From positions 1-32,540 of the forward strand of contig CAMAMB010000021.1 of the NCBI GenBank assembly GCA_945836755.1: DNA of 32,540 bases, read 5' to 3'. Numbering within the stretch: the first letter of the stretch is position 1; every line of letters starts with the position of its first letter. The position numbers and the translations under genes are program-made. Origin of the DNA: an uncultured Bacteroidales bacterium. Lineage in GTDB: Bacteria > Bacteroidota > Bacteroidia > Bacteroidales > Bacteroidaceae. Shown here one piece after another: positions 9,096 through 31,086 of the stretch. The notes under the pieces are model-generated. The model had not been told where the DNA came from. It was given only the letters and a program-made list of their open reading frames with translations, and ran no database searches.

Positions 9096-9249
9096 GGGGT
9101 TTTGCCGTTCTCGGAAGCCTTCGCGCGAGTAACATTGGGGCGGATGTCACCTTGCTTTCGGGCGGATGCCACCTTGCTTTCGGCCCAATGCAACCTTGCA
9201 TTCGGGCAGATTTCACTCTCGCGGATGCTTCCAGAAACGGCAAATCCCC
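9096..9249. repeat. Palindromic element, copy 1: four 22-bp units between inverted arms
   Basis: Four consecutive 22-bp units occupy 9133-9154, 9155-9176, 9177-9198 and 9199-9220. Each begins CATT or CTTT followed by a GC-rich core; the first three end in CCTTG. Flanking arms are imperfect inverted repeats: of the first 35 bases of the left arm (from GGGG at 9096), about 28 match the reverse complement of the right arm (ending CCCC at 9249). The left arm contains CCTTCGCGCGAGT. A second copy is at 26815-26934. The element sits between the divergent promoters of argF' and the TlpA-like gene. Frames open across it in several phases, but none looks like protein. GCCACG occurs on both sides (9089-9094 and 9255-9260), a weak hint of a target duplication. 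Confidence 0.8.
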
Positions 9250-25392: not shown

Positions 25393-26475
25393 ATGACACA
25401 TCTGCGCTTCCTCCTCCCCGGCCTGCTGTCAGCCCTCTGTCTGATGCTCGGCCCCATGGCCCACGCCCAGACAGCGCTCGCGCTCAAGCAGCGCTCCCTC
25501 GCCCACTGGCACATAGGCACAGCCCAGTATAGCGGCATCACCCCCCTCGGCGACGGCCGCTACGCCGTGGTCAGCGACAAAGAGCCCACCGACGGCTTCT
25601 TCATCTTCCGCATTGCACAAAGCCCCCTCACGGGTGAAGTGACCGACGTCGCCTTAGAAGGCTTCAAGGGCAACAAGCAGCCCAAGGTCGACGCCGCCGG
25701 CATCAGCATACGCGACTGTGAGGGAGTGGTCTACGTGCCGGCCTTCTCCACCCTCTTCATCAGCGGCGAGGGCGACCAGCAAATACTGGAATACGACCTC
25801 GAAGGGCAACCCACCGGACGCAAACTGGCTGTGCCTCAGTGTTTCGCCCTCGACAGCATCTACCACAACTATGGCTTCGAAGCCTTGGGATACAGGGCAG
25901 AGACAGGCCGCTTCTGGACCACCACCGAGAGCACGCTACGGGCTGACGGACCGGCGGCCTCGCCCTCACACCCCGGCGTGCGCAACCTGCTGCGCCTACA
26001 GAGCTTCGACCACAGCCTGGCACCCGCCGGACAGTATGCCTATCGCATGGACCGCGGCGAAACCGAAAAGCTGGGCTCGCCCTACATCTACGGAGTGCCC
26101 TGCCTCACCGCCCTGCCCGACGGACGCTTGCTCATACTCGAACGCGAGGCCAACATCAAAGGCGGATACTTGGGCAGCACCTGCCGCTGCAAGCTCTTCC
26201 TCGTCGACCCCACACAGAGCGCACAGATCGACGCCTCCACCCGCCTCGACACCCTCGACCCTAACCTATTCATGGTCAAGAAACTACTGGCTGAGTGGAC
26301 CACAAAGGTCAAGCTCAGCAGCATGGACTTTGCCAACTACGAAGCCATGTGCCTGGGCCGCACGCTCGACGACGGACGCCGCACCCTGCTCCTGCTCAAC
26401 GACTCGCAAGGGGGCTACAGCAAGGGGCCCTTCAGCCTGAAGGACTACATCAAGGTGGTGCTCTTAGGCGAATGA
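25393..26475 (+). CDS. Exported phytase-like (esterase-like activity of phytase) protein
   Basis: 360 residues with a clear signal peptide (LLPGLLSALCLMLGPMAHAQ, cleavage after AHAQ). The mature part matches the family called esterase-like activity of phytase, a β-propeller. Characteristic segments are SGITPLGDGRYAVVSDKE, DCEGVVYVP, NYGFEALGY and NYEAMCLGRTLDDGRRTLLLLNDSQ. It probably acts in the periplasm as a phosphoesterase or sugar-phosphate hydrolase. The activity is family inference only. It is the last gene of the cluster, with a 15-bp hairpin 45 bases after its stop. Confidence 0.85.
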   Translation: MTHLRFLLPGLLSALCLMLGPMAHAQTALALKQRSLAHWHIGTAQYSGITPLGDGRYAVVSDKEPTDGFFIFRIAQSPLTGEVTDVALEGFKGNKQPKVDAAGISIRDCEGVVYVPAFSTLFISGEGDQQILEYDLEGQPTGRKLAVPQCFALDSIYHNYGFEALGYRAETGRFWTTTESTLRADGPAASPSHPGVRNLLRLQSFDHSLAPAGQYAYRMDRGETEKLGSPYIYGVPCLTALPDGRLLILEREANIKGGYLGSTCRCKLFLVDPTQSAQIDASTRLDTLDPNLFMVKKLLAEWTTKVKLSSMDFANYEAMCLGRTLDDGRRTLLLLNDSQGGYSKGPFSLKDYIKVVLLGE

Positions 26476-26520
26476 CCCCACCGCCGGCCCGTAGCTTCCA
26501 CATAGGGCTCCCTTTCTCAC

Positions 26521-26558
26521 AGCAGGCTCACCCACACCGCCCCGTGGGTGAGCCTGCT
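26521..26558 (+). terminator. Strong hairpin ending the PASTA-ddl cluster
   Basis: Perfect 15-bp stem (26521-26535 with 26544-26558, AGCAGGCTCACCCAC) and an 8-base loop, with no U-tract. It lies 45 bases after the phytase-like stop. Bases 26559-26714 show nothing clear except GCTTCTGAGAAC at 26591-26602, identical to the right end of the element at 26815-26934. Confidence 0.8.
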
Positions 26559-26714
26559 TGGCATACGGCCCGGAGACAGGCTCGGCCGCCGCTTCTGAGA
26601 ACCGTCGCTCCATGCCCTCGCCGCGCGGCCGTTCCCGGCCCTCACGACAAGGCTTCGCGGCATGACGCCCCACGCCCCGGACAAATTCGGAAGCCACCGC
26701 GCCGTGCCCAACTA

Positions 26715-26819
26715 CCTCTCCATCATGGTTGGCAACCTACAAGCCATGCGCAAAAGTTCCCAGACCATGCACAGAAGGCATCCCGCCGTTATCTGAAGGC
26801 GGCGCGCCATGTGTAGAAG
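26715..26819. repeat. Degenerate 21-bp tandem array (five units)
   Basis: Five consecutive 21-bp units at 26715-26735, 26736-26756, 26757-26777, 26778-26798 and 26799-26819. On the minus strand they begin TTGCCAACCATG, CTTTTGCGCATGG, CTTCTGTGCATGG, CTTCAGATAACGG and CTTCTACACATGG, giving a rough consensus CTTCTGCGCATGG. The last unit overlaps the left arm of the palindromic element by 5 bases. The array lies in the convergent gap between the phytase-like gene and gpmI. Confidence 0.65.
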
Positions 26820-26934
26820 CCTTCGCGCGAGTAACATTGGGACGGATGTCACCTTGCTTTCGGGCGGATGCAAGGTGGCATTCGGCCCAATGCAACCTGA
26901 CATTGGGCCGAATGTCACTCGCGCGAATGCTTCT
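26815..26934. repeat. Palindromic element, copy 2: four 22-bp units between inverted arms
   Basis: Same element as 9096-9249. Units at 26835-26856, 26857-26878, 26879-26900 and 26901-26922 are 22 bp each. The heads of units 3 and 4, CATTCGGCCCAATG and CATTGGGCCGAATG, are exact reverse complements. Arms: AGAAGCCTTCGCGCGAGT from 26815 and ACTCGCGCGAATGCTTCT ending at 26934, which match as inverted repeats except for one base. The first two units are nearly identical to copy 1. The element lies between convergent genes, each with its own terminator. Confidence 0.85.
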
Positions 26935-26937
26935 GAG

Positions 26938-27012
26938 AACGGCGAGGGGGCTTGCGGAAACGGCAAGGAGGGTTGCGGAAACGGCGAGGGGGCTTGCGGA
27001 AACGGTGGAGAG
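26938..27012. repeat. 21-bp tandem array (3.6 units)
   Basis: Units at 26938-26958, 26959-26979 and 26980-27000, then a 12-base partial unit. Units 1 and 3 are identical (AACGGCGAGGGGGC..., ending TTGCGGA). Unit 2 differs at three positions. It starts 4 bases after the palindromic element, so 26715-27012 is one compound block. Confidence 0.85.
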
Positions 27013-27087
27013 GCATCTGTCATTGCCGCCCCAGGCTGAAAGCAGGACGCGCGGCTACGGCGCAGCGGGCAGAGGCACTGCACAATA

Positions 27088-27120
27088 AAGGCCCTGCCAT
27101 CGGAGCGACGGCAGGGCCTT
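27088..27120 (-). terminator. Rho-independent terminator of gpmI
   Basis: Perfect 11-bp stem (27088-27098 with 27110-27120, AAGGCCCTGCC) with an 11-base loop. On the minus strand it is followed by TTATTG, a short T-rich run. It lies 45 bases after the gpmI stop. Confidence 0.85.
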
Positions 27121-27165
27121 GTGGGAGATACGGGGCGGCAGCGCGCGGGGCGCACCGACGGGGAA

Positions 27166-28701
27166 TTAGTCTTCGATGAGGTTGTGACCGGTCATTTCGG
27201 CGGGCTGCTCCAATCCCATAATGTGGAGGATGGAGGGAGCGACGTCGGCCAGCACGCCGTCCTTCACCTTGGCGGCCTTGTTGTCGGTCACATAGATGAA
27301 GGGCACGGGGTTGAGGGAGTGGGCGGTGTTGGGACTGCCGTCGGTGTTGACGGCATTGTCGGCGTTGCCGTGGTCTGCAATGATGATGGTCTCGTAGCCG
27401 GTGGCGTTGGCCGCGGTGACCACTTCATTGACGCACTGGTCGACTGCCTTAACGGCTTTCTCAATGGCTTCGTATACGCCGGTGTGGCCCACCATGTCGC
27501 CGTTGGCAAAATTTACTACGATGAAGTCGTACTTGTCTTGCTTGATGGCTTCGACGAGCTTGTCTTTCACTTCGTAGGCCGACATCTCGGGCTGGAGGTC
27601 ATAGGTGGCCACCTTGGGTGAAGCCACGAGAATGCGCTCTTCGCCCTCGTAAGGTGTTTCGCGGCCGCCGTTGAAGAAGAAGGTGACGTGGGCGTATTTC
27701 TCTGTCTCGGCTGTGTGAAGCTGCTTGAGGCCCTTGGCGGCAAGGTATTCGCCGAGGGTGTTCTGCACATTCTCTTTGGGGAAGAGGATGTGTACACCGG
27801 TGAAGGAGGCGTCGTAGGGGGTCATGCAGAAGTATTGCAGGCCGGGAATGGTGTGCATGCCTTCAGCCTCCATGTCCTGCTGGGTGAGCACGACGGTGAG
27901 CTCCTTGGCGCGGTCGTTGCGGTAGTTGAAGAAGATAACCACGTCGCCCTCGCCGATACGGCCGTCGACGTTGGCATTGACGAGGGGCTCCATGAATTCG
28001 TCGGTGTTCTTGTGCTCCTCAGAGTCGGTGTCGTAGCAGCTCTGCACGCCTTCGACCATGTCGGTCACGGCTCGGCCCTTGCCCTCGACGAGAAGGTCGT
28101 AAGCCACCTTTACTCGGTTCCAGCGCTTGTCGCGGTCCATGGCGTAGAAACGGCCGATGATGGAGGCGATGCTTGCTCCGTTGGCGTCGCAGACCTTCTG
28201 GAGGTCGGCCACGAAGCCCTTACCGCTCTTGGGGTCGGTGTCGCGGCCGTCCATGAAGCAGTGGACGAAGGTGGAACCGGCTATGCCGTACTCCTTGGCT
28301 ATTTCGACGAGCTTGAAGAGGTGGTCGAGCGAGGAGTGGACGCCGCCGGTGGAGGTGAGGCCCATGAGGTGGAGTTTCTTGCCGTGCTCCTTGGCATAAG
28401 TGTAAGCGGCCACGACTTCAGGGTTTTGCATGATGGAGCCGTCGGCACAGGCGCGGTTAATCTTGACGAGGTCTTGATAGACGATGCGGCCGGCGCCGAT
28501 GTTGAGGTGACCCACCTCGGAGTTGCCCATCTGGCCGTCGGGAAGTCCTACATTCTCGCCGCAGGCCAGGAGATGGGAGTGAGGATAGGTGGCGGCAAGG
28601 TGGTCCATGAAGGGTGTAGGTGTGGAGAAGATGACGTCGCTCTTGGTGTGGTTGCCAATGCCCCAACCATCGAGGATCATGAGGAGTGCTTTCTTTGACA
28701 T
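27166..28701 (-). CDS. gpmI: 2,3-bisphosphoglycerate-independent phosphoglycerate mutase
   Basis: Interconverts 3- and 2-phosphoglycerate in glycolysis. Alkaline-phosphatase superfamily enzyme with two manganese ions. 511 residues, the usual length. The N-terminal metal site is ILDGWG (Asp11), the phosphorylated nucleophile is Ser61 in [25 protein letters not shown] and [12 protein letters not shown] belong to the transferase domain, and DHGNADN near residue 443 gives the second metal site. A longer frame starts at 28767, but [14 protein letters not shown] at 28701 is the conserved N-terminus. The terminator of the DUF349 gene lies upstream, so gpmI should have its own promoter in 28702-28825. 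I see no clear -7 box there. Confidence 0.97.
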
Positions 28702-28825
28702 GGGTATGTAAACGTGTAAAAGGATTTGACTGATATGGGGGAGCGGGCGGGAATTGTCAGACGGCAAGGGGGCTGCCGGCCTGACGCTTGGAACGCTGCC
28801 CCGGAGCAGGGAGGGGGAGATGAAG

Positions 28826-28866: not shown

Positions 28867-30825
28867 TTAGGAGGCTTGCTCGGCCTTGATCTGTTCGGCC
28901 ACAGCCTTTAGCTTCTCTGCGATTTCGCTGAGGTCTTGCTTGAGGCGCTCGACCTTCTTCTCGATGTCTGCTACCAGGGAGTTGCCTTTCTTGGACGAGG
29001 AGCGGAAGAAGGTGAGATTGGTCTCGTAGTTGGTGATTTCCTGCTTCTTGGCGTCGTAGGCATTCTGGAGCTTGGTATACTCTCGGGTGAGTTCAGAGCC
29101 TTCTTTCTCGGCGGTCTTCTTACGGAAGTTGTCGAGGCGGCGACGGCCTGCGCTCTGGTGGAGAGCATCGTAGATGGTGTCGCACACTTCGCGGTAGCGG
29201 CGATACATCTTTTCCTTTTTATTATAAGGCACGTGGCCTATCTCGGCCCAACGGGCCTGGAGGGCGCGCACGGCGGCGAGCTGGTCGTCGGCGGGGTTCT
29301 CGGCAATCTGTTGCAGCTCGGCGATGACAGCCTTCTTGAGCTCGAGATTAGCTTCCTCCTCCTGACGCTGGCCTGCCGTGGCCTGGTTTTTCTGCTCGAA
29401 GAAGTAGTTGCAGGCTTCGTTGAAGCGTTTCCAGATGGCGTCAGAGACTTTGTGGGGCACGGGGCCTATGCTCTTCCACTCCTTCTGGAGCTCGACGAAC
29501 TTATTGGTGGTGACGCCCCAATCGGTGCTGTCTTTCAGCTCCTCGGCGCGCTCTACAAGGACATTCTTGGCGGCGAGGTTGGCGGCAAGCTTCTCGCGGT
29601 TGGACTTAAAGAAGGCCGTCTTGGCTTGGAAGAAGCGGTCGCAGGCTGTACGGAAGCGTTCAAAGATTTCGTTGTTGACCTTGCGGGGCGTAAAGCCGAT
29701 GGTCTTCCACTCGGTCTGGAGGGCGATGACTTCCTTGGTGGCCTGTTCCCACGCATTGTAGGAAGTATAGGCGTCGAGGTCGATGGCCTCGGCCTTGATG
29801 CAAAGCTCTGTCTTCTTCTGGAGATTTTCTTCTTCGCGGGCCTTGAGGCTCTCGAAGTGCTCCTGGTGGCGTTTGTTGACGAGGGTGGAAGCCTCTTTGA
29901 AGCGTTTCCAGATGTCCTCGCGCAGGTCTTTGGCCACGGGGCCGGTCTCACGGAACTCCTGGTGCAGCTTTTGCAACTGGTGGAAGGCGGAGATGACGTC
30001 CTCTACGTCGGCCAGCTTCTCGGCGGCCTCACAGAGCTTTGTCTTCAACTCGAGGTTTTTCTTGAAGTCGTAGGCGCGCATCTCGTGGTTGAGGCGGAGC
30101 TGGTCGTAGAACTGCTCCACGTAAAGCTGGTAATTCTTCCAGAGCTCAGTGGCATTCTCGGCGGGGACAAGCTTTATCTCCTTCCACTCAGCCTGTAGCT
30201 TCTTAACTTCGTCGTAACCCTTGTCGGCTGTGTCGGGAGAGGCGGCGAGCTCTTTGAGACGCTCGATGATGGCCTGCTTGCGCTGAAGATTTTGCTGCTT
30301 CTCTGCTTCTATCTGCTGCGCGGCCTGGTTGCGTAGCTCCTTGATGAGGCTGTACTGGGCCTTGAACTCTTCTTCTAAGGGGTCGGGGGCGGGCACAAAT
30401 TGCTCGGCCTCTCCGCCCTGGGCTATAAAGGCTTCGCGGGCAGCAAGAGTCTCGGCCCCGCGGAAGCGATAATAGAGCATCTTGAGCTTCTCTAACTCCT
30501 GGCGCTCAACGTGCTCCTTGTTATAAACAATGTCTTTAAGGCGAGCGAGCACTTCTTCCTTGGAGGAAAATTCAGGCTGCTCGGCGGCTGCCTCGGGCTG
30601 CTCTTCTGCAGTCTCAGGCTGCTCTTCAGCAGTCTCAGGCTGCTCTTCAGCGGCTTCGGGCTCTGCAAGCACGGGCTGTTGAGGCTCTGCCTCGACGGCA
30701 GATACGTCTGCGCCAGCTTCAGGCTGACCACATTGGGGCTCTTCTGCACTCACCTGAAGGGGTGCAGCTTCGGAGGCAGCGGTAGAAGCGTCTGCCACTC
30801 CGGTTAAAATCTTTGTTTCGTCCAT
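28867..30825 (-). CDS. DUF349 repeat protein
   Basis: 652-residue, strongly helical and charged protein. The first ~110 residues are acidic and Gln/Pro/Glu-rich, with a repeated EEQPETA heptad encoded by the 21-bp array at 30577-30660. The rest holds about five DUF349 repeats, each with the pattern W-K-x-I-G-x-x-P or similar: EWKEIKLVP, EFRETGPV, EWKTIGFTP, EWKSIGPVP and RWAEIGHVP. The C-terminal ~100 residues are coiled coil (EKKVERLKQDLSEIAEKL). The function of DUF349 is not known to me. Proteins of this kind are widespread in Bacteroidetes. A longer frame from 30897 adds 24 unlike residues, and MDETKIL at 30825 is preferred. Confidence 0.88.
   Translation of the reverse strand: MDETKILTGVADASTAASEAAPLQVSAEEPQCGQPEAGADVSAVEAEPQQPVLAEPEAAEEQPETAEEQPETAEEQPEAAAEQPEFSSKEEVLARLKDIVYNKEHVERQELEKLKMLYYRFRGAETLAAREAFIAQGGEAEQFVPAPDPLEEEFKAQYSLIKELRNQAAQQIEAEKQQNLQRKQAIIERLKELAASPDTADKGYDEVKKLQAEWKEIKLVPAENATELWKNYQLYVEQFYDQLRLNHEMRAYDFKKNLELKTKLCEAAEKLADVEDVISAFHQLQKLHQEFRETGPVAKDLREDIWKRFKEASTLVNKRHQEHFESLKAREEENLQKKTELCIKAEAIDLDAYTSYNAWEQATKEVIALQTEWKTIGFTPRKVNNEIFERFRTACDRFFQAKTAFFKSNREKLAANLAAKNVLVERAEELKDSTDWGVTTNKFVELQKEWKSIGPVPHKVSDAIWKRFNEACNYFFEQKNQATAGQRQEEEANLELKKAVIAELQQIAENPADDQLAAVRALQARWAEIGHVPYNKKEKMYRRYREVCDTIYDALHQSAGRRRLDNFRKKTAEKEGSELTREYTKLQNAYDAKKQEITNYETNLTFFRSSSKKGNSLVADIEKKVERLKQDLSEIAEKLKAVAEQIKAEQAS
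30577..30660. repeat. In-frame 21-bp tandem repeat inside the DUF349 gene
   Basis: Four units of exactly 21 bp (30577-30597, 30598-30618, 30619-30639, 30640-30660), each starting CTGCTC on the plus strand. The middle two differ at one base. They encode the heptads AEEQPET and AEEQPEA. A change in unit number would keep the frame. Confidence 0.85.
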
Positions 30826-30906
30826 GATAAGGGATTGGATGAGGATCAACGTCGACTTACGAACAACGCGGAGGCTTCTGCGAGCCGGCACGTGCATAAA
30901 TCAGGG

Positions 30907-30960: not shown

Positions 30961-31086
30961 CTCCGGGGCCTCGCCCGGCTACTGAGAGGCTTCACCCGAC
31001 CGCTCCGGGGCTTCACCTGGCTACTCTGGGGCCTCGCCCGGCTACTCTGGGGCTGCACCTGGCTACTCTGGGGCTGCACCTGGCAG
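30961..31086. repeat. 21-bp tandem array (six units)
   Basis: Six consecutive 21-bp units from 30961 to 31086, each beginning CTCTGGGGC or a close variant and mostly ending GGCTA. The last two units differ only at the final base. The array lies between the corA terminator and the DUF349 promoter region, about 135 bases upstream of the DUF349 start. Heptad frames are open through it but look like no known protein. Confidence 0.85.

Follow-up and report, generated by a model that had tools for sequence, protein, structure and literature searches.

What does a four-part, near-symmetric repeat between two genes do in a bacterial chromosome: does it fold as a hairpin, or does it present a symmetric set of sites to a protein? 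The question is raised by an element in the 32,540-nucleotide stretch analyzed here (the window), which belongs to the draft assembly of an uncultured Bacteroidales bacterium (G000; 2.25 Mb, 94 contigs, 85% complete). We refer to the repeat family of this element as family A. The element, its neighbors and the other copy in the window (copy 1) are as follows.

25393-26475, plus strand: left flanking gene, no NCBIfam match
26785..26828, plus strand: left arm, two 21-bp-spaced units of GCCGTTTCTAGAAGCCTTCGC type, weaker outward
26829..26920, plus strand: 92-bp core, GAGTRA..TCACTC, gap-free in 22 copies
26835..26848, plus strand: unit 1, CATTGGGACGGATG, 22-bp spacing
26857..26870, plus strand: unit 2, CTTTCGGGCGGATG, 22-bp spacing
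26879..26892, plus strand: unit 3, CATTCGGCCCAATG, 22-bp spacing
26901..26914, plus strand: unit 4, CATTGGGCCGAATG, the reverse complement of unit 3
26921..27005, minus strand: right arm, 21-bp units of GCCGTTTCTAGAAGCCTTCGC type inverted, running into a AACGGCGAGGGGGCTTGCGGA tandem run
27166-28767, minus strand: right flanking gene pgm, 2,3-bisphosphoglycerate-independent phosphoglycerate mutase
9127..9218, plus strand: core of copy 1, same family, with arms at about 9104-9126 and 9219-9241

The four-unit element and its copies

The initial annotation had reported four 22-bp units, arms matching as an 18-base inverted repeat with one mismatch, and heads of units 3 and 4 that are exact reverse complements. 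Sequence comparison bore out all three, the outer arms being AGAAGCCTTCGCGCGAGT (26815-26832) and ACTCGCGCGAATGCTTCT (26917-26934). The inverted symmetry continues outward to span 26785-26964, where the arms are 87 nt long and 71% complementary. In the window element, heads 3 and 4 and linker 2 alone passed a dyad test requiring at least 5 of 7 pairs; by a hand count heads 1 and 2 reach 4 of 7 pairs and are thus weaker as dyads. Units 1 and 2 had been described as nearly identical to copy 1 and units 3 and 4 as more different. With one, zero, one and five base differences in units 1 to 4, this holds for units 1, 2 and 4, whereas unit 3 is no further from copy 1 than unit 1 is. Linker 2 of the window element is the exact reverse complement of linker 2 in copy 1. 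The two copies do lie in unlike gene contexts, as had been noted, copy 1 being between divergent genes and the window element between convergent ones.

A BLAST search of the own assembly at E values up to 10 gave 55 matches on both strands, which resolve into 22 places (E 1.9e-94 to 2.1e-10) plus short matches below 37 bits, so the element is not a product of chance. The motif CATTSGGSCSAATG, with at most one mismatch, gave 83 strand-matches (40 and 43) against 2 for the reversed control; this count takes a palindromic site on both strands, and a few of the 83 lie outside family A. No match at E 0.001 came from the 60 other genomes searched, which include 36 of the same genus, and family A is found so far only in its own assembly, one of 61 genomes. 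Exact degenerate patterns had no match in the genome_contigs and viral_contigs collections, and a scan of the phages collection gave none either, own-genome records possibly having been left out of all three. Comparison of the phosphoglycerate mutase places Prevotellamassilia timonensis (90%) and Prevotella sp. MGM2 (87%) nearest among named records, together with Bacteroidales or Alloprevotella MAGs. Placement along contigs was neither significantly even nor clustered: five adjacent pairs lie 17.5-27.5 kb apart against 3.6 expected (P for at least five pairs 0.27; P for a minimum spacing of at least 17 kb 0.077; some contig sizes interpolated).

When oriented and compared without gaps, all 22 copies keep four 22-bp units, and a MAFFT alignment of the 22 runs to 118 columns with zero gaps. 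The initial annotation had named a lack of four-unit structure in other genomic copies as grounds for rejecting its idea; with 22 of 22 keeping that structure, the idea stands. The earlier observation of a four-unit element is confirmed, and the element is part of a larger family. Each copy has, in order, GAGTRA (one has CAGTAA), four heads of 14 bp joined by linkers of 8 bp at a constant 22-bp spacing, and TCACTC or one of its variants. The head is dyad-symmetric at its invariant positions (CATnnGnnCnnATG), and the linker is a weak dyad, nnASSTnn. Outside the core stand 21-bp units, GCCGTTTCTAGAAGCCTTCGC on the left and its inverse on the right, facing inward. Mean information content per column falls from about 1.5 bits in the core to 1.0-1.2 and then 0.5-0.7 over the next 21-bp steps, and to about 0.2 or less beyond. 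Allowing up to three mismatches, the own assembly has the arm 21-mer at 10 places, each of them next to a core.

Conservation within the units is strongly positional. Across 88 units T3, G6 and A12 are invariant and C9 is kept in 87, while positions 5, 8 and 10 are highly variable, mostly G versus C. For phases 3, 6, 9, 12, 17 and 20, which were picked after seeing the position counts, 21 of 24 columns are invariant, compared with 33 of the 86 columns in the core (P about 7e-9). Autocorrelation of column entropy, which involves no choice of phase, is best at lags 11 and 22 (0.53 and 0.52). Mirror symmetry of conservation about the element axis (0.36) is not special, as the value is 0.38 for an axis 1.5 bp away. 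The invariant positions could partly come from homogenization between units.

Folding, gene context and transposition

RNA folding of both strands, proposed as a check in the initial annotation, gave very stable folds (z -9.4 and -9.0), and folding as DNA gave z -8.7. Strong folding is expected from a structural RNA, and specifically from a transcribed hairpin acting as a terminator, RNA stabilizer or RNase III substrate; extreme folding energies are also what a near-palindrome would give anyway. Comparison of the copies lent the hairpin reading no support. Pairing between the arms amounts to 74.6% of cells against a shuffle mean of 75.0, with 401 of 500 shuffles at least as high, so that compensatory changes are no more frequent than in shuffles. 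Of the 57 column pairs, ten fail to pair in 15 to 20 of the 22 copies, covariation within units lies below all 500 shuffles, and the RNAalifold consensus, no better than -8.3 kcal/mol, has one pair among 23 in which both sides have changed. As the paired columns lack covariation, a selected hairpin is unlikely despite the extreme folding scores.

Gene context bears on a transcribed hairpin from both sides. The 22 copies stand in 10 convergent, 7 tandem and 4 divergent contexts, with one at a contig edge. Convergent pairs are enriched around them (10 of 21 versus 18 of 95 copy-free intergenic regions of at least 350 bp from sampled stretches; Fisher P 0.01), a point in favor of the transcribed hairpin, but the element occurs in divergent and tandem contexts too. 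By eye, the sequence between the end of each flanking gene and the element contains a hairpin (26521-26558 and 27089-27121), but a consensus scan of 26400-27300 found no terminator-like or promoter-like site, and the window has no Rfam family at gathering score. Taken with the comparison of copies, these results make a transcribed hairpin improbable. A structured RNA family was likewise rejected, since compensatory base changes were lacking and the window has no Rfam match. No gene was predicted over any of the 22 cores by a home-made codon-usage gene-calling script; mechanical open reading frames overlap the window element with scores too low to be called genes.

A second possibility is that the element is simply a MITE, that is, what is left of a non-autonomous transposon, bounded by terminal inverted repeats, dispersed in trans and without a function for the host, with a fixed length that reflects common descent. 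It is dispersed, intergenic and present in one of 61 genomes, and it has inverted ends: GAAGC starts 17 of 22 copies and GCTTC ends 19 of 22, at a constant distance from the core. Compared copies of a different element in a related genome (G083, see below) are likewise equal in length, with near-perfect inverted ends. Against this, we found no target-site duplication (mean 1.73 versus 1.47 for shuffled partners), a feature which is not obligatory for every MITE. The ends are not sharp, as conservation fades over the 21-bp units, and conservation recurs periodically in every unit instead of being concentrated at the ends. Among the BLAST matches in the 85%-complete own assembly, none away from the 22 cores exceeds 37 bits, so that no longer element with family A arms, such as an autonomous parent, is seen among these matches. 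We regard a plain MITE as possible, though rather doubtful.

Candidate protein sites and known systems

Of the two readings in the initial annotation, the hairpin was not supported by the comparison of copies, while a symmetric set of protein sites fits the invariant dyad positions, the fixed spacing and the absence of indels. The reading that we prefer, with a confidence that leaves it about as open to doubt as to belief, is that of a MITE- or REP-like dispersed element whose functional part may be a series of putative protein sites with dyad symmetry, all on the same side of the helix. Four units of a 14-bp head and an 8-bp linker, about two helical turns apart and flanked by weaker inward-facing 21-bp units, would be read by a putative dimeric DNA-binding protein contacting T3 and G6 in each half-site. 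Fixed dyad contacts at one or two helical turns with freer bases between them are the pattern that cooperative dimer binding along one face would be expected to leave. The role of such binding might be architecture or insulation between genes, and copies may have spread by a MITE-like or gene-conversion route helped from elsewhere.

Phased arrays of binding sites are familiar from plasmids, among them the 11-bp repeats of R1 parC, the 20-bp repeats of pSK41 and the 22-bp iterons of R6K. Like family A, such partition and iteron arrays space their sites by one or two helical turns along one face. They differ in being plasmid loci close to the gene for their binding protein, whereas family A has about 22 copies.

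The closest published case that we have seen is BrickBuilt, a MITE/minisatellite of Porphyromonas gingivalis that is exclusively intergenic, with 19 copies in ATCC 33277, a 23-nt tandem unit repeated 1 to 22.8 times and long predicted stem-loops (PMC4596501). The short terminal inverted repeats in its leader and tail resemble those of ISPg1 and ISPg9, and its authors report no BLASTn match outside the species (PMC4596501). Compared by description and not by sequence, family A is similar in its Bacteroidales host, intergenic location and unit size, and differs in having exactly four units, a 22-bp period and no leader or tail that we could see. Symmetric arms of fading units, which family A has, are undescribed in the part of PMC4596501 drawn on here.

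In being short, dispersed, intergenic palindromes of mixed orientation, family A copies also resemble the REP/BIME elements associated with RAYT transposases (see also PMC2817692), as far as these are covered in the sections used of PMC3733652; CGTC-type REP repeats are reported in Bacteroidetes (PMC3733652). They are unlike REP/BIME elements in their fixed 22-bp spacing and in having no fixed GTAG or CGTC tag. The RAYT domain Y1_Tnp (PF01797) had no match in the 85%-complete own assembly, while the control was positive in 5 of 14 genomes, and the family A consensus has neither tag at its ends. GTAG/CTAC occurs in 4 of 22 cores (13 of 22 with 45-bp arms added) and CGTC/GACG in 4 of 22 cores; the window element carries GTAG in its arm at 26813-26816. 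With no PF01797 match and no fixed end tag, membership of family A in the REP/RAYT system is unsupported. No description of an element of this class appeared among the matches listed in open-licence literature, at the level of titles and the beginnings of abstracts, or in the passages around search terms in PMC12306157 (a 2025 REP survey), PMC10969869 (a 2024 MITE review) and PMC5771137 (P. gingivalis repeats).

Arrays of similar period in the same genome and in relatives

Family A is not the only array of this period in its genome. Among intergenic tandem arrays in sampled stretches of the own assembly, 60 of 99 have a period of 21 or 22, comprising 41 of 58 in stretches with family A (its copies included) and 19 of 41 in stretches without it. 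Three further families were distinguished.

L154:583-722, L155:8197-8314, L156:17967-18150, L189:1869-1986 and other loci: family B, ATGTACAT palindromes every 22 bp exactly, with A- or T-run linkers
L152:11066-11786, L158:10945-11690 and L165:15287-15732 (intergenic; Tandem Repeats Finder): family C, 22-bp arrays with a TTTCGGCCGAAA-type unit
L164:13551-13601, L161:10565-10636 and L153:13545-13574: family D, 21-bp units, GGAATGCTTCC-type palindromes

Three-unit windows of family B occur 334 times per strand in the own assembly and in none of 57 other genomes of the genus. A backward-pattern control in the own genome gave 234 matches; because family B units contain the reversed motif, this control is uninformative and yields no background estimate. 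Of 25 runs of at least three units in the sampled stretches, ten have exactly six. GTAG is present in the units. The exact 12-mer of family C was found at two places in the sampled stretches, and family D resembles the arms of family A and also adjoins family B arrays. Several contig ends fall inside family B arrays (the starts of L160, L164, L168, L169 and L185, the end of L181, and both ends of G000:C3 and G000:C5), which suggests that these arrays broke the assembly there; contig breaks in such assemblies may be explained by arrays of this kind.

A further explanation is that replication slippage, together with snap-back template switching at palindromes, produced the arrays as a by-product without function. 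Tandem and inverted organization do occur together, and linker centers are found in both orientations, as CC or GG in family A and as runs of A or of T in family B. Of the differences in the cores, 43% are complementary changes, compared with 34-36% for those in the far flanks; in family B linkers the share over the inner 8 bp is 56%, a figure that has no flank control. Slippage leaves unexplained, however, the dispersal, the four gap-free units in 22 of 22 copies and the invariant positions, and we consider it very improbable as an account of the element.

Arrays in related genomes also bear on the protein-site reading. These genomes were sampled in stretches, and the copy numbers given for G082, G083 and G016 are minimum values or were tallied by hand. 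Among intergenic tandem arrays, those of period 21 or 22 make up 8 of 8 in G016, 17 of 23 in G008, 4 of 8 in G015 and 3 of 11 in G017, and 36 of 83 in 80 pooled named loci. By contrast, the complete relative G004 has none among 53, although seven of these fall on or near multiples (42 and 65, for example), and two stretches of E. coli (100 kb) hold no array. Arrays of 7 bp (13) and 14 bp (9) are also common in the pooled relatives, where some of those counted at 21 bp may thus be heptamer repeats. The units differ between most genomes, a CCATGGGATGG type being common to G015 and G017.

A 21- or 22-bp array lies just downstream of the mutase gene in 6 of 80 named loci (L072, L089, L098, L113, L127 and L146). 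Of six regions that were read, L098, L089 and L146 showed inverted arms around a tandem center, L072 and L127 were less alike, and the nearest relative, L070, had no such array there. The L146 region, from another species, has nested inverted arms rich in CCCCTCCCC around its 22-bp array (L146:7640-8050). The L098 array is dispersed in its genome, G082, at no fewer than seven places plus one weak match; by eye, its copies have differing numbers of central units, which shows that four units are not a general rule. The L089 element is dispersed in G083 at 38 or more places (40 of 53 candidates scored), and nine distinct loci (ten loci, two with identical flanks) align gap-free over 107 bases. 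Four G083 loci have dyads at about 22, 32.5, 43, 53.5, 75.5 and 86, that is, in steps of about 10.5 bp with one missing; exceptions are L253, without the dyad at 32.5, and L256, with an extra one at 54.5. The third of four head positions is degenerate in the four G083 loci. G016 holds another dispersed element at a minimum of about 40 places (40 of 171 candidates scored), with none in seven other genomes among the matches listed.

Dyad spacing was compared with a shuffle of non-overlapping dinucleotide blocks, which is only roughly dinucleotide-preserving. A strict test on perfect 12-bp palindromes showed no phasing in eight sets, except for three pairs at 21.0 in the pooled relatives, and the relaxed dyad rule behind the following counts was chosen after it. 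The 80 pooled loci peak at 21.0 (10 versus 0.6 expected) and 10.5 (9 versus 0.8), with half-turn bins near expectation (7 versus 3.8 at 15-16.5 bp; 6 versus 5.3 at 26-28 bp). With family A masked, G000 has spacings of 22 (16 versus 0.4) and 44 (16 versus 0.6), its 11-bp spacing being gone (3 versus 2.3 at 10-11.5 bp). G016 peaks at 10.5 (6 versus 0.2) and G008 and G015 at 21 (4 versus 0.0 each). The signal is weak in G017 (3 versus 1.0 at 20.5-22.5 bp), absent in E. coli (0 versus 0.6) and, in G004, a broad excess without an exact peak (15 versus 5.0 at 20.5-22.5 bp).

Similar spacing with different sequence in relatives suggests candidate docking sites for a DNA-binding protein. As the sites differ between species, no single protein with one specificity would read them all. 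We tentatively propose, as a possibility short of likely, that relatives of Alloprevotella and Prevotellamassilia may carry chromosome-wide intergenic dyad arrays whose geometry (10.5-11 or 21-22 bp) is kept while the sequence is replaced between species, as in eukaryotic satellite DNA. The reader would be a putative fast-evolving dimeric architectural protein co-evolving with its sites. Short dispersed intergenic repeats are often classed as inert REP or MITE debris; what is kept here, in several species with different sequences, is helix-matched spacing together with dyad positions. If a protein reads the arrays, they would form an unrecognized layer of chromosome organization in gut Bacteroidales, and shifting one unit by half a turn is predicted to abolish binding.

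The window also contains 21-bp and 63-bp tandem repeats at 30572-30662 and 30961-31084, the former inside a predicted reading frame (28867-30897, minus strand). These are probably unrelated to the element, 21 being a multiple of three there.
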